DNA from: Alistipes senegalensis
GTDB taxonomy: Bacteria; Bacteroidota; Bacteroidia; Bacteroidales; Rikenellaceae
DNA: 58,465 bases
Assembly (NCBI GenBank): GCA_023665825.1
Contig: JAMPDE010000001.1
Coordinates: 805,394-863,858, forward strand
Direction: 5' to 3'
The notes under the pieces were generated by a model. The model was not told the DNA's origin and ran no database searches. It saw only the letters and a program-made list of their open reading frames with translations. The position numbers were made by a program, and so were the translations under genes. Shown here piece by piece: positions 13,577 through 18,870 of the stretch; the stretch's first letter is position 1; each line of letters starts with the position of its first letter.

Positions 13577-13599
13577 TCGAAAACGATTCGCATCGTGCA

Positions 13600-13630
13600 C
13601 GGGCCGGACGAAATGTCCGGCCCGTTTTTT
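13600..13630 (+). terminator. intrinsic terminator of the Oar-like receptor
   Basis: CGGGCCGGAC / GTCCGGCCCG 10-bp stem, loop GAAAT, then a run of seven or more T. Confidence 0.93.
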
Positions 13631-13654
13631 TGTAAAAAATTTCATTGTTATTTA

Positions 13655-13685
13655 TTTCACAAACCCGAAAGTTTTTCTACCTTTG
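13655..13685 (+). promoter_or_regulatory. pckA promoter
   Basis: TACCTTTG (13678-13685) is a good -7 element. The -33 is a weaker TTTC at 13655-13658, 19 bp upstream. The start codon lies ~90 bp further. Confidence 0.6.
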
Positions 13686-13774
13686 CGGTGTTCGTTCGTG
13701 CGCGGTTTTTGCTCGCATCGGACGGAAAGCCACTATTTAACATTGAGATTCTATTCAAGCAAATTAATAACACT

Positions 13775-15379
13775 ATGGACAAACAGGATCTGAAAAAGTA
13801 CGGGATTACGGGCGTTACCGAAATCGTGTACAATCCGTCGTACGACGAACTTTTCCGCGAGGAAACGAAAAAGGGTCTGCGCGGCTATGACAAAGGCCAA
13901 CTGACCGAAACCGGAGCCGTGAACGTGATGACCGGCGTTTACACCGGCCGTTCGCCCAAAGACAAGTTCTTCGTGATGGACGAAACCACGCGCGACACCA
14001 TCTGGTGGACGTCGGACGAGTACAAGAACGACAACAAACCGGTGACCAAAGCCGCTTGGAAAGAGCTGCGCAAACTGGCCGCACAGGAGCTGTCGAACAA
14101 GAAACTCTACGTCGTCGATACGTTCTGCGGCGCCAACGAGAACTCGCGTCTGAAAATCCGCTTCATCATGGAGGTGGCATGGCAGGCGCACTTCGTGAAG
14201 AACATGTTCATCCGCCCGACCGACGCCGAACTGGAAAACTACGGCGAACCCGATTTCGTGGTGCTCAACGCCTCGAAAGCCAAAGTCAAGAACTACAAGA
14301 AACTGGGTCTGAACTCGGAAACGGCCGTCGTCTTCAACCTCACGGAGAAGATGCAGGTCATCATCAACACGTGGTACGGCGGTGAGATGAAAAAAGGTAT
14401 GTTCTCCTACATGAACTACCTGCTGCCGCTGAAAGGCATGGCCTCGATGCACTGCTCGGCCAACACCAACGAAAAAGGCGAAACGGCCATTTTCTTCGGT
14501 CTGTCCGGTACGGGCAAGACCACCCTTTCGACCGACCCGAAACGCCAGCTCATCGGCGACGACGAGCACGGCTGGGACGACGACGGTGTCTTCAACTTCG
14601 AGGGCGGCTGCTACGCGAAAGTCATCAACCTCTCGAAAGAGAACGAACCCGACATCTGGAACGCCATCCGCCGCAATGCGCTGCTGGAGAACGTGACGGT
14701 CGACAAGAAGGGCAAGATCGACTACGCCGACAAGTCCGTTACGGAGAACACGCGCGTTTCGTATCCGATTTTCCACATCGAGAACATCGTGAAGCCCGTA
14801 TCGAAGGCTCCGGCCGCCAAGAAGGTCATCTTCCTCTCGGCCGACGCATTCGGCGTACTGCCTCCGGTGTCGATTCTGACCCCCGAACAGACGAAATACT
14901 ACTTCCTGTCGGGCTTCACGGCCAAACTGGCCGGCACGGAGCGCGGCATCACCGAACCGACGCCGACTTTCTCGGCCTGCTTCGGCGCGGCATTCCTGTC
15001 GCTGCACCCCACGAAATACGGCGAGGAACTCGTGAAGAAGATGCAAAAATCGGGTGCAACGGCCTACTTGGTGAACACGGGCTGGAACGGCACGGGCAAA
15101 CGCATCTCGATCAAGGATACGCGCGGCATCATCGACGCCATCCTCGACGGTTCGATCGACAAGGCACAGACCAAGAACATTCCGATCTTCGACTTCAAGG
15201 TGCCGACCCAGCTGCCGGGTGTGGACTCCCACATTCTCGACCCGCGCGACACCTACAAGAAGGCTTCCGAATGGGAGACCAAAGCCAAAGACTTGGCAGG
15301 TCGCTTCATCAAGAATTTCACGAAATTCTGCGGCAACGACGAGGGCAAGAAACTGGTGGAAGCCGGTCCGAAGTTGTAA
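13775..15379 (+). CDS. pckA: phosphoenolpyruvate carboxykinase (ATP)
   Basis: A 534-residue ATP-type PEPCK interconverting oxaloacetate + ATP and PEP + CO2 + ADP. In succinate-producing Bacteroidales it mainly runs in the CO2-fixing direction. Visible signatures are the substrate loop Y-T-G-R-S-P-K-D-K, the kinase P-loop [13 protein letters not shown] (about residues 240-252), and the following D-D-E-H-G-W-D-D metal/nucleotide segment. Length is normal. It stands alone between its promoter and a terminator. Together with the oxaloacetate decarboxylase-type gene at 5413 it indicates C3/C4 carboxylation metabolism, though the genes are not linked. Confidence 0.97.
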
Positions 15380-15450
15380 TTTTTTCCGCGCGCGACGCCG
15401 GACACGAGGCTCCGTGCTTCGTCCCTGCCATCATGCCACATCGAACGAAG

Positions 15451-15482
15451 AGCACCGTCCCGAAATTCGGGGCGGTGCTTTT
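15451..15482 (+). terminator. terminator after pckA
   Basis: AGCACCG(T)CCCGAA / TTCGGG(G)CGGTGCT stem followed by TTTT. It also falls at the 3' end of the minus-strand vWA lipoprotein gene (stop at 15483), so it may serve both. Confidence 0.8.
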
Positions 15483-16376
15483 CTATTCATCGTTTTTCAA
15501 AAAATGTTCGATTCGCCGTTTCGTGTTTATCGTATTCGGATCCGTTGTGTAAATCTCATGTCGAGAAACACCCATCTCATTCAACCATTTTTCTAAAAAA
15601 TGTTTGAGCATCTCGTCTTGTCGATACGAACTTGGATTCAATTCCAATAACAACACCTCCAAGTCAGAAAGATTCTGTTGCGGAACAAGCAGTCCGAAAT
15701 CGAGTTTTTCCGCCTGATCTTTCCAATTCAGATTATTACCAAAAGTCGTCTTTAACAAGGGGGATGTAAGATACGAGTAACGGTTTCCTTGTTTTGCTTT
15801 GGTATGCTTGTTATACAGATAGCCGTCTGTCAAAATAACAAGGATATTCCGATACACCGCTGGATCTTTAATAAAAAATCGGATATCGTTTTTGAAAAAT
15901 CCCCATATATCCGCCCCTTCAAATTTATTGGTTTGAATGGACGCTTTATATATATTTCGTATGCTTATACGAAAATTATCTTGCAAGTTATTATATAAGG
16001 AGTCCTTTTTATTACACTCCTCGAAATCGGCTTGAAGTTCTGCGGCCCATTGGTTGATTTTCGGATCGGACGGTGCAGGAAGAAACAACACTTGCAATTT
16101 GTCTTTCATTGAGATAATGCGTTTTTGGCCCATGTGCTCCTTGATAAAATGCATAGTAATAGCATTGATAACTGCTGTATCGCGCATCATCTGCGAAATA
16201 GAACTCCCATCTGTCGGCGGAAGCGCGATTCGATCCGAAAGGTCAAGCAAAATCGTAAGATTCCACTGTTTTTCGGTCGGTTTAATCGTTCCGCTTCCAT
16301 TATTTTTTATTGATGTATTTTGACATCCAACCAATGCCAATAAAATAAGTACAGATAATAGTCGTTGGAGTTTCAT
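15483..16376 (-). CDS. vWA-like lipoprotein of the TerB cassette
   Basis: A 297-residue predicted lipoprotein: signal peptide with lipobox L-A-L-V-G-C (Cys18). The mature part starts with a Rossmann-like beta strand N-L-T-I-L-L-D-L-S-D-R-I, where D45-x-S47 resembles the first MIDAS motif of von Willebrand A domains; the usual third Ser is Arg49. A second vWA-like element is V-I-L-T-D-G-Y-L-Y (Asp184). The C-terminal ~60 residues end in a helix. Third cistron of a three-gene unit, 40 bp after the membrane protein. Codons and base composition are clearly AT-rich compared with flanking genes, suggesting acquisition. vWA plus TerB partners occur in Ter-type stress and phage-response systems, but I do not recognise this exact protein. 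Confidence 0.65.
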   Translation of the reverse strand: MKLQRLLSVLILLALVGCQNTSIKNNGSGTIKPTEKQWNLTILLDLSDRIALPPTDGSSISQMMRDTAVINAITMHFIKEHMGQKRIISMKDKLQVLFLPAPSDPKINQWAAELQADFEECNKKDSLYNNLQDNFRISIRNIYKASIQTNKFEGADIWGFFKNDIRFFIKDPAVYRNILVILTDGYLYNKHTKAKQGNRYSYLTSPLLKTTFGNNLNWKDQAEKLDFGLLVPQQNLSDLEVLLLELNPSSYRQDEMLKHFLEKWLNEMGVSRHEIYTTDPNTINTKRRIEHFLKNDE

Positions 16377-16416
16377 GGCAATTCAATCCTTTTTCTTTGA
16401 GAAGTTAGTTCTTTTG

Positions 16417-17586
16417 CTAAAGTTTTGCAATAAATTCGTCTTTCCGTGCACACTGTGCATTTATTTGATCCTGCGACACACCGGCTTGGCTCAACCAAGC
16501 CGACCAGCCGTTAAAAAAATTATTAATCTCCAAAATAACATCGCTTGGATTAAATTTGTAATTGTTTTTGCTTAATCCCAACTGGATAATTCGTCCTTCG
16601 TAATCACGATTCCCCAACACCAATGAATTGTTGTTTTTCGTCAGATCATTACATTTTTTGTTCGATTCTTTGATTTTTTCCTTAATTTCTTTTATGCGAA
16701 CACGAACTGGATCTAATGTATCATAGATATTCATCAAGTGCCCGAACAAAATACCCCAAATAACATAAACAATGAAACCGGAAAAAATAATCAACCAGAA
16801 TCCCGGCATTTGGAGCGCAATTGAAAAATCAAAATCAGTAGAAGACATTGTACGAGTAAGTTCATATATCTTCTCTTCAATCGTATAGGCCAATAAAATA
16901 TCAAATATGAAAGCCAGCAAATAAAGTCCATATTTCAATTTATCTGCTTTCTCTTCCAGAAAATGCAAAACAAGCCCAAATCCCAAAAAGACGAAAGGAA
17001 AAGTCAAGATGAAAACGATATTCATCCAACCTTTATCGACAGCATTGCTCAATGCGTATGGATCGAAAATTTGATCCGCTACTTGGTCAGTTATGTCTGA
17101 CGCTGGTTTTATAAATGCTGAATAAGCAGCAGAACTGTAAAAGACGAACAAATAGACCGTCAAGAAAAGGATTATTGCACATCCAATACAGAACAGCCAT
17201 TTTTTAGGGGAATCACTTCCTGTTTCAGAATTAGGTTCGGCATTGATTTTAGCAATATCCATGTTATATTGTCCAATTTTGTTTTTTTCGGTTTGTAGTG
17301 CGTCTTCATTTTGTTGAATAGAAGTTTTATTTTCCTCAATATTTGCTCGAAATCCGGCAATCTGTTGATCTATTTCTATAATATATTGTTGATAGGCCGC
17401 ATCTTGGGCTTTTTGTGATGCAATACATTGTTGATGGACGATCTGAAGGCATACCGACAAACCGGTATCTGATCCCAAATGGGCTCCAGCTTTTTGGAAC
17501 CCCCATTTCTGATAAGTTATACCGCCTTGTACGTTATTGGTCGTAGTAACAGACTTTTGTGTGAATATGGTAGACAGGTTCATCAT
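16417..17586 (-). CDS. coiled-coil four-helix membrane protein of the TerB cassette
   Basis: A 389-residue protein with no signal peptide. After a ~55-residue N terminus comes a Gln/Glu/Lys-rich coiled coil (~60-120). Four hydrophobic helices follow (about 130-150, 188-211, 218-238, 265-287), then a second Lys/Glu-rich coiled coil (~298-325) and an Asn-rich tail. It could be related to the four-TM coiled-coil DUF4407 type, but I cannot confirm this. Its ATG overlaps the TGA of the TerB-like gene (ATGA at 17583-17586), so the two are translationally coupled. AT-rich like its neighbours. A membrane sensor or scaffold between the cytosolic TerB protein and the periplasmic/outer-leaflet vWA lipoprotein is a reasonable inference. 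Confidence 0.65.
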   Translation of the reverse strand: MMNLSTIFTQKSVTTTNNVQGGITYQKWGFQKAGAHLGSDTGLSVCLQIVHQQCIASQKAQDAAYQQYIIEIDQQIAGFRANIEENKTSIQQNEDALQTEKNKIGQYNMDIAKINAEPNSETGSDSPKKWLFCIGCAIILFLTVYLFVFYSSAAYSAFIKPASDITDQVADQIFDPYALSNAVDKGWMNIVFILTFPFVFLGFGLVLHFLEEKADKLKYGLYLLAFIFDILLAYTIEEKIYELTRTMSSTDFDFSIALQMPGFWLIIFSGFIVYVIWGILFGHLMNIYDTLDPVRVRIKEIKEKIKESNKKCNDLTKNNNSLVLGNRDYEGRIIQLGLSKNNYKFNPSDVILEINNFFNGWSAWLSQAGVSQDQINAQCARKDEFIAKL

Positions 17587-17990
17587 TGTGCTACAATTGT
17601 TTGGATTACTTCCGAAATAGTTTTGTGTTTTTTTGCTGCATCAAACAATTCGTCCATAAATCGGTTACGAACTGCGGAATCGCCGATTCCGAAACGTTCG
17701 CAAAATCGCTCAAACGATTGTCGTTCTGCCGGTTCTATCTTTCCGTCGGATACTATCAAACGTGCATAATCATAAAGGTAGACAACCTTTTCTTCATCGT
17801 TTTCCGGAATGACAGTCGAGTGGATTGGCCGGATAATGGCATCTTCGAGTTCATCGTGCGAAACACCGTGCTCACATCCAATTTGATAGAGGACTTCCAA
17901 CTCTTCCGGTGCGAAATCAAGATCGGAAAAAGCCAAATGATACAAACTCATAAAATGAGTTTTGAGTTTGTCGGGAATTGGGTTTGTCAT
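17583..17990 (-). CDS. TerB-like protein (tellurite-resistance/DUF533 fold)
   Basis: A 135-residue all-helical, acidic protein. It has two related segments: F-S-D-L-D-F-A-P-E-E-L-E-V-L (21-34) and I-V-S-D-G-K-I-E-P-A-E-R-Q-S-F (79-93). The D-G-x-I-x-x-x-E pattern is the hallmark of TerB-like domains, which bind metal through conserved acidic residues. No signal peptide; cytosolic. First gene of the AT-rich minus-strand cassette, overlapping the membrane protein gene by ATGA. A conserved structured RNA ends about 79 nt upstream of its start. Not evidence for tellurite resistance by itself, since terC, terD and terZ are absent. Confidence 0.7.
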   Translation of the reverse strand: MTNPIPDKLKTHFMSLYHLAFSDLDFAPEELEVLYQIGCEHGVSHDELEDAIIRPIHSTVIPENDEEKVVYLYDYARLIVSDGKIEPAERQSFERFCERFGIGDSAVRNRFMDELFDAAKKHKTISEVIQTIVAQ

Positions 17991-18068
17991 AATTTGTTAT
18001 TCCCAGTCGGCTCCTACCCGGGTAAATCTCGTGATAAATCAGAAAGCGTGGTGCCGAAACCTATTTCA

Positions 18069-18240
18069 TTAGAGTAGGTCGTAGGAAACCTTGAAGATAA
18101 AACAAGCAACAGCCCACGCCTGTACACCCAACAGAACGTTGGATATACGACGCGGCAAAATGTTCGCCAATTCCCTCTTCAGATTGAATTTCCTACGTTC
18201 ACTCTAAAGGAATAGCTACACTCTCCGTGTAATCAATACG
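18069..18240 (-). ncRNA. structured RNA, copy 1 (upstream of the TerB cassette)
   Basis: Read on the minus strand: a small hairpin TACAC/GTGTA (18230-18216), then a long-range closing stem TTAGAGT (18207-18201)/ACTCTAA (18075-18069). An asymmetric internal loop GAAC/GACCT follows, then an inner stem GTAGGAAA (18196-18189)/TTTCCTAC (18088-18081), and ~100 nt of further structure. The same architecture with compensatory changes recurs at 46061-46208. A promoter matches just upstream (18247-18277). No T-run terminator is visible before the TerB-like start at 17990, so this copy may be the leader of that operon. I do not recognise the family with certainty; a Bacteroidales-1/6S-type RNA or a riboswitch-like leader are possible. 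Confidence 0.55.
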
Positions 18241-18246
18241 TCTGTG

Positions 18247-18277
18247 CAAAAATAGACATATTTGCGGAAAATGCAAA
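18247..18277 (-). promoter_or_regulatory. promoter of structured RNA copy 1 / TerB cassette
   Basis: On the minus strand TTTG (18277-18274), 19 bp, then TATTTTTG (18254-18247). Start expected near 18240, directly before the first hairpin of the RNA. Between 18280 and 18440 I see nothing else. Confidence 0.65.
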
Positions 18278-18440
18278 AAACATCTTACCGTTTTCGAGGC
18301 TGCTGCTATAATGCGCCATGCGGCCGCCGTAAATTTCCGAAAATCCCGCGAAAAACCCAAATACACCTCCCCGCAAAAAAGAGGAGTGCAGGTTTTGGCC
18401 AATAAACCGCATGATTCTACAAGATTTTTTCGCAATTATT

Positions 18441-18470
18441 TTGTTCGAGTGACTTTTTTGTTTAACTTTG
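18441..18470 (+). promoter_or_regulatory. promoter of tRNA-Glu and rpsT
   Basis: TTG (18441-18443), 19 bp, TAACTTTG (18463-18470). It lies 40 bp before tRNA-Glu; rpsT follows with no terminator between. Confidence 0.7.
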
Positions 18471-18509
18471 CACCGCTAAAGTTCCCCGCGAGGGTTGCGA
18501 TAGCGGTAA

Positions 18510-18581
18510 GGCCCATTCGTCTATCGGTTAGGACGCAAGATTTTCATTCTTGAAAGAGCAGTTCGATTCTGCTATGGGCTA
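18510..18581 (+). tRNA. tRNA-Glu (TTC)
   Basis: GGCCCATTCGTCTATCGG begins the tRNA, and the acceptor is closed by ATGGGCT (18574-18580). The anticodon loop TTTTCAT gives TTC. Located directly upstream of rpsT and probably co-transcribed with it. Confidence 0.94.
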
Positions 18582-18618
18582 CACGAATCGAAAAGTAAAA
18601 ATAAACACAAACGGAATC

Positions 18619-18870
18619 ATGGCAAACCATAAGTCATCGAAAAAAAGAATCCGCCAGACCTTGACCAAACGTGCGCACAACCGGCTGTTCCACAAGACAG
18701 CCCGCAATGCTGTGAAAGCCCTGCGTGCCACCACCGAAAAGAGCGCGGCCGAAGCGTTGCTCCCGAAGGTGAACTCGATGTTGGACAAGCTCGCTAAGCA
18801 CAACATCATGCACAAGAACAAGGCAGCGAACTTGAAAAGCGCCATGCAATTGCATGTGAACGCCTTGTAG
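18619..18870 (+). CDS. rpsT: 30S ribosomal protein S20
   Basis: An 83-residue, Lys/Arg-rich protein with the canonical N terminus M-A-N-H-K-S-S-K-K-R-I-R-Q-T and a K-A-A-N-L-K-S C-terminal motif. S20 binds 16S rRNA early in 30S assembly. The start is fixed by family alignment; the upstream in-frame Met at 18550 lies inside tRNA-Glu. Followed by an intrinsic terminator. Confidence 0.97.
   Translation: MANHKSSKKRIRQTLTKRAHNRLFHKTARNAVKALRATTEKSAAEALLPKVNSMLDKLAKHNIMHKNKAANLKSAMQLHVNAL

Follow-up and report, generated by a model that had tools for sequence, protein, structure and literature searches.

Two described systems come closest to the gene set analysed here. In the excerpted text of PMC11090510, the TerY-P triad is made up of a TerY-like vWA protein, a PP2C phosphatase and a kinase-zinc ribbon protein, and, according to part of PMC10781749, the T6SS-iii membrane complex of Bacteroidota corresponds to TssNQOPR, with TssR as a vWA-containing lipoprotein. 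The locus described in this work lies in a 58,465-nucleotide stretch of Alistipes senegalensis DNA (hereafter, the window) and embeds three consecutive minus-strand genes, as an earlier note on this DNA had read them. They code for a TerB-like cytosolic protein (17583..17990, 135 aa ORF), an inner-membrane protein with four transmembrane (TM) spans and two long coiled-coil helices (16417..17586, 389 aa ORF) and a lipoprotein with a vWA-like domain (15483..16376, 297 aa ORF), so that the products are predicted for three compartments on the basis of the Pfam TerB match, the lipobox and the TM topology. The TerB and TM genes are joined by an ATGA overlap, and the motifs listed in the earlier note (SDGKIEPAE in TerB, four hydrophobic segments, a lipobox, DLSDR and TDG) are all present. 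Where a TerY-P locus would have a kinase and a PP2C gene beside the vWA gene, the trio is flanked by pckA (13595-15379) on one side and by tRNA-Glu (18510-18582), then rpsT, on the other, and its third gene is that of the TM protein. No described system with this trio was found in Pfam, NCBIfam, PADLOC, PHROGs or the searched literature, in agreement with the earlier statement that none was known; we regard the trio as a new system with a putative function only.

The TerB identity of the first protein is supported by its family: the window protein scores 23.2 bits (E 9.2e-5) against Pfam TerB (PF05099), slightly below the gathering cut-off of 24.4, and all 36 relatives match the same model at E <=0.1 (best 1.7e-9). 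Two D-x6-E pairs of equal spacing (D23/E30 and D82/E89) are invariant in this family. A solved TerB-like protein, PG_1108 (PDB 2h5n), resembles the family profile in sequence (E 1.3e-7), but it is only distantly related to the TerB protein of the trio.

The third protein has the lipobox ALVGC, and a lipobox is found in 39 of the 48 members of its family, which agrees with its reading as a lipoprotein. The AlphaFold2 model is confident (pLDDT 88.8, pTM 0.85) and shows a strand running into DLSD, a long helix, a strand and helices 124-149 and 157-168, followed by a strand running into TDG, helices, a strand, a helix, a strand and a helix, an order that we take to be that of a vWA domain. D45, S47, T183, D184 and G185 are invariant in the family; in place of the canonical MIDAS (DxSxS...T...D) there is an invariant D45-L-S47-x-R49 with a near-invariant D156 and the invariant D184. 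The vWA-like nature that had been proposed stands as far as the strand order of the model and the D-x-S and TDG motifs are concerned, but not at the level of sequence matches, which are weak: Pfam VWA_2 was found in 5/48 members, against 9/48 for an unrelated Rho domain, and hhalign gave a BatA-type vWA a probability of 1.5%, both motifs being aligned. On the strength of the model, the lipoprotein may carry a vWA-like domain with a non-canonical DxSxR site.

The TM protein could be assigned to no family of Pfam, NCBIfam, PADLOC or PHROGs, where it gave weak coiled-coil matches only; its coiled-coil parts are also matched by PDB chains. Its AlphaFold2 model is all-helical (pLDDT 86.0, pTM 0.55), with long helices at residues 40-116 and 293-340 and hydrophobic segments at residues 135-151, 191-204, 221-232 and 262-281. 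Since there are four spans, both coiled coils must lie on the same side of the membrane. The mean numbers of K/R versus D/E in the family are 3.5/2.1 and 6.7/5.5 in the N-terminal and C-terminal flanks, 2.9/1.3 in loop 2 and 2.6/4.0 and 2.9/3.8 in loops 1 and 3, a charge pattern from which both coiled coils are predicted to be cytosolic. Thus, the four spans and the coiled coils recognized previously hold, but not their placement "on both sides". Invariant residues are present in the TM helices and loops of the family.

Searching named genomes with the lipoprotein profile yielded at least 445 relatives, the best 80 of which were kept. In 71 of these 80 loci the TerB, TM and lipoprotein genes are each present exactly once, in this order and on the same strand; in the remaining nine, either the TM gene is in two ORFs (three loci) or TerB is missing (six loci). 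This neighbourhood survey is in agreement with the idea of a conserved three-gene order, at least among the best 80 of the 445 or more relatives, which by record title nearly all belong to Bacteroidota, two MAGs being labelled Acidobacteria and Elusimicrobiota. Of 295 genomes of the order, the own one among them, nine matched the lipoprotein, and in eight of these the TM gene adjoins the lipoprotein gene. The trio is complete in five (the window, L011, L014, L015 and L016); a sixth, L012, has all three genes with the TM gene in two ORFs, as in L055, L056 and L070. In L013 the contig ends at the TM gene, and L017 has the TM and lipoprotein genes and no TerB. L018, a weak lipoprotein match with no TM partner, was dropped from the family. 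Genome contigs searched with the TM protein alone gave no match, whereas the lipoprotein profile did match.

A six-frame profile search of the six TerB-less loci and of L017 again revealed no TerB, two of the six (L082 and L114) being cut by a contig end and L104 starting near one. Since these loci (6 of the best 80 of at least 445 relatives, plus L017) are without it, TerB does not seem to be strictly needed. In L041 (3694-3972) and L098 (6376-6651) a different protein of 91-92 aa takes the place of TerB, its gene lying 5 nt ahead of that of the TM protein, and this replacement fits the existence of a modular read-out slot. Downstream of the lipoprotein gene of L104 (3629-5971) there is a Sel1-repeat protein with a ZorA/MotA-like stretch (PADLOC E 6.3e-14, Pfam MotA_ExbB below cut-off).

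The distribution of the trio is patchy. It was found in 21 of 395 phylum genomes, own included (14/171 genera, about 5% of the sampled Bacteroidota genomes), and in only one of 180 same-genus genomes, that is the own genome, where the TM gene is single copy; because of this, we consider the trio to have been acquired by the window genome, as had been surmised. The composition of the locus also corresponds to the earlier description of an AT-rich trio between GC-rich flanks: the GC content of the three genes is 36-42%, the window being mostly at 50-65%, and in 500-base steps it is 0.33-0.41 across the trio, which is the longest low-GC stretch of the window, versus mostly 0.50-0.65 elsewhere, with few steps of 0.43-0.50. 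The TM and lipoprotein genes are the two lowest-GC ORFs among 38 greedy ORFs (>=100 aa), a set in which the TerB gene (GC 0.42) is masked by an antisense ORF. The window belongs to a 1.34-Mb contig of a 2.27-Mb genome (29 contigs, 88% complete, 2.9% contamination), and contamination is unlikely because the trio is inside this long contig and directly behind a leader (see below) that has other copies in the genome.

The 3' side of pckA was inspected by tblastn in 20 of 40 other genus genomes examined, and in 20/20 neither the trio nor rpsT was matched within 2.1-3.0 kb beyond pckA, so that the pckA-rpsT adjacency (window 13595-18870) is itself not conserved; the comparison yielded no clean empty site. 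A tRNA scan of the same 20 regions, run without a positive control, listed none. In phage records there was no match to the TM protein or the lipoprotein, viral contigs did not match the lipoprotein patterns, and a Runella plasmid gave one weak lipoprotein match (24.8% identity). In L098 (2645-5344) the region upstream of the trio has ORFs that, by eye, resemble a relaxase and a tyrosine recombinase.

Among the trio loci, the GC content of the trio is below that of the flanks in 75 of 84 (3 of 87 were left out for short flanks), the mean difference being -3.7 points and the deficit exceeding 10 points in nine. The six loci in which it most exceeds the flanks belong to Flavobacterium, Chryseobacterium and Tenacibaculum, and in the GC-rich loci L054, L061 and L062 the trio is within 4 points of its surroundings. 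Many loci of Chryseobacterium, Flavobacterium and Chitinophaga share their neighbours, with the trio in a longer same-strand run; hence the trio is probably inherited largely vertically in these genera and is not a roaming island everywhere. In Flavobacteriia and Chitinophaga, the runs include HsdR_N-like, DUF1508, DUF6804, PH-SHOCT, SNase, TIR-FGE and response-regulator genes, Excalibur-like genes (below cut-off), small membrane proteins and, by eye, caspase-like and TPR-kinase-like genes; the response-regulator genes near the trio are found in Flavobacterium.

These neighbours bear on what the trio might do. The earlier note had considered a defence function, and an anti-phage system, in which an envelope complex would detect phage and TerB would trigger growth arrest or membrane damage, would account for the patchy distribution, for the PtuA/PtuB-like (Septu) genes adjoining the TM and lipoprotein genes in L013 (1-1712), for the mad3-like gene beside the trio in L055, for the TIR-FGE and HsdR_N genes of the longer runs and for the TM gene being in two ORFs in four loci, as in genes under turnover. 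However, PADLOC models are matched both by trio-adjacent genes (135 near genes; 25 of 86 families among the matches listed) and by control genes five to six places away (103 genes; 25 of 130 families among the matches listed), and since the control genes also match, a local enrichment in defence genes does not emerge. The trio proteins themselves have no convincing match in PADLOC 2.0.0, the best being LmuB for the TM protein (a coiled-coil match, E 8.7e-4) and PDC-S48 for TerB (E 0.045); moreover, no toxin-like domain was seen in the trio, the site is stable in many Chryseobacterium and Flavobacterium loci, and phage records carry neither the TM protein nor the lipoprotein. We thus consider a defence role unlikely, albeit worth keeping in mind.

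A purely structural function appears rather less plausible. The lipoprotein and the TM protein might tether the membranes or organise a secreted-nuclease operon, TerB being accessory, and the long coiled coils of the TM protein as well as the SNase, Excalibur-like, PH-SHOCT and small membrane proteins of the longer runs are in line with such an envelope scaffold, but the window copy, like others, is isolated among genes unrelated to it. As for the handling of metal or tellurite stress in the manner of Ter operons, it might be suggested by the TerB family membership, by the acidic conserved residues and by the co-occurrence of vWA domains with Ter genes reported in the excerpt of PMC11090510; yet TerC, TerD, kinase and phosphatase are absent by eye from the window neighbours and from the matches listed for the trio neighbours (25 of 130 Pfam families), and we hold this function to be improbable.

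Directly upstream of TerB, the strand folds far better than its shuffles (z -5.2), and the comparative analysis revealed an unbranched structured leader RNA of about 190 nt (18037..18227, minus strand; 160.5 bits with the covariance model R1), ending 46 nt before the TerB start codon. It is preceded by TATTTTTG (18247..18254, minus strand), a TAnnTTTG box, which we take to be the Bacteroidota-type -7 consensus. At the DNA level, 17 of 61 genomes, counting the own one, match the leader; all 17 belong to the own genus, and identity is 69-84% apart from the self-match. R1 was built from 17 copies. With R1, the own genome yields 13 matches, four strong (158.9-169.9 bits) and nine of 44.5-84.1 bits; copies were noted at window 18037-18227 (-) and at L180, L181 and L183-L191, and a second, weaker match in the window lies at 2762-2984 (+; 49.9 bits). 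Within the genus, 149 of 180 genomes have matches; within the order, 44 of 247 do (36/174 genera), and the weaker of these matches may be other rods.

The structure is supported by covariation. In a MAFFT alignment of 17 copies, two-sided changes leave the pairing intact at 25 of 63 predicted pairs; with 43 copies fitted to R1 the figure is 49 of 60, and 94.6% of the cells pair, against 44-49% in slid controls, the fitted alignment leaning towards structure. The leaders of L030 and L033 also show the stem GUAGGAAA/UUUCCUAC changed into CUGGUAAA/UUUACCAG, both sides altered together. TAnnTTTG starts 17-42 nt upstream in 38/38 selected genus copies (control stretches, 1/38), and a same-strand ORF (>=60 aa, within 300 nt) follows all 38, compared with 383 of 760 random points; in a wider copy list, the downstream ORF is present in 50 of 53, the exceptions L172, L184 and L209 not being among the 38. 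It is thus very improbable that the leader, although multicopy, palindromic and about 190 bp long, is a MITE-like DNA repeat inserting upstream of genes rather than a means of RNA regulation, as it sits between a -7 box and a same-strand ORF and its altered stems keep pairing (in helix 4, 8/8 pairs are double-changed).

By eye, the genes after the copies appear to code for small lipoproteins, fimbrillin-like proteins, a helicase and the trio. The 3' end of the leader reads GCACCACGCUUUC, followed by a U-rich run; ACGCUUUC pairs with the 5' GAAAGUGU, and an invariant GGCGU has two possible partners, GCGUC within the rod and ACGCU ahead of the U-rich run. This layout is that of an attenuator, and the leader may act as a transcription attenuator. 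For comparison, 5' UTRs of B. thetaiotaomicron have a median length of 32 nt (PMC7366714, in part). When R1 was searched over 85 trio loci (1.30 Mb, E <=10), three of six matches preceded TerB by 46-165 nt on the gene strand (L046, 32.9 bits; L043, 22.0 bits; L053, 47.9 bits), the other three not being before TerB; a separate match in L011 (29.5 bits) lies 51 nt before TerB. In four further trio loci of Bacteroidales the leader is therefore matched shortly before TerB, with two weak scores: because the reverse strand of true copies reaches 29.2 bits, L011 and L043 rest on position as much as on score.

No Rfam family matches the window leader, and of nine viral contigs retrieved by a pattern scan none had an R1 match at E <=0.01. 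A reading as 6S RNA was dropped, the leader being multicopy and without an Rfam match. The DUF805b RNA (RF02914) is likewise a leader element of Bacteroidota, but it spans 35 positions versus about 185 and has no match at the window leader; it occurs elsewhere in the own genome and, in L053 (6239-6273, +; 42.4 bits), between the rod leader and TerB. Near a leader copy in L171 there is, on the opposite strand, a cobalamin riboswitch (1755-1955, +; 95 bits). With respect to Rfam and the searched literature, the leader appears to be a new RNA class; palindromic Bacteroidetes candidates are listed in a human-microbiome survey (PMC8040213, in part).

The explanation that we prefer, with a confidence somewhat short of even, is that the trio represents a signalling or stress module of Bacteroidota that spans the envelope, is self-contained and moves horizontally, and that in the window genome it is provided with a probably attenuating leader. 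From topology and conservation we infer a path leading from the outside domain through a relay to TerB. Beyond the inner membrane, the vWA-like domain of the lipoprotein would bind a partner or ligand, a metal at the non-canonical MIDAS perhaps taking part, and would touch both short extracytosolic loops of the TM protein. The TM protein might then transmit the state of this domain to its pair of coiled coils in the cytosol, the putative docking site of TerB, an acidic protein that would serve as adaptor or inner read-out. In the window genome, the trio would have come under the control of a native promoter followed by a structured leader RNA, thereby joining a lineage-wide leader regulon, and the leader would probably attenuate transcription until a signal comes. 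This explanation draws on the fixed order (71/80 loci, best 80 of at least 445; 5/9 order matches), the three compartments, the vWA-like strand order, the invariant TM-protein residues, the single carrier among 180 genus genomes, the leader and promoter directly upstream and the Flavobacterium response regulators. Against it we count that the interaction of the three proteins is itself conjectural, that the vWA sequence match is weak, that the MIDAS is DxSxR and that TerB seems dispensable; the TM protein and TerB could also act without the lipoprotein being the sensor.

A broader possibility, to which we assign a rather low probability, is that of an undescribed class of trans-envelope sensing across Bacteroidota with a vWA-like lipoprotein, a four-TM relay with two coiled coils and an exchangeable cytosolic read-out, be it TerB or some other small protein. 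In Bacteroidales, this class would repeatedly have been placed under a new kind of unbranched attenuator leader of about 190 nt, whose regulon would comprise surface, lipoprotein and acquired genes and whose switch would be the two invariant, mutually exclusive pairings of GGCGU. In any case, two of the three proteins have no assigned family, and the trio, which has a size suited to deletion and testing, is present in Flavobacterium, Chryseobacterium and Chitinophaga that can be cultured; Chitinophaga japonensis DSM 13484 (L054) and Flavobacterium aquidurense RC62 (L073), for example, have it intact. The leader may be a larger find than the trio, and could be used throughout the lineage to learn how acquired and surface genes may be switched on in Bacteroidales.

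Compared with Ter systems and the TerY-P triad, the trio shares a Ter-family protein or a vWA-like domain, the small transferable operon and a presumed link with stress or conflict, but it has neither kinase nor phosphatase, its vWA-like part is a lipoprotein, and a membrane coiled-coil protein links the two in the order TerB-TM-lipoprotein. The TssNQOPR complex of T6SS-iii differs in having five proteins, a TssN with five spans and a globular domain, and no TerB, whereas the window trio has four spans, another gene set and no adjoining secretion genes; the likeness between the two lies in the combination of inner-membrane proteins and a vWA or vWA-like lipoprotein in what, for the trio, would be a trans-envelope complex.
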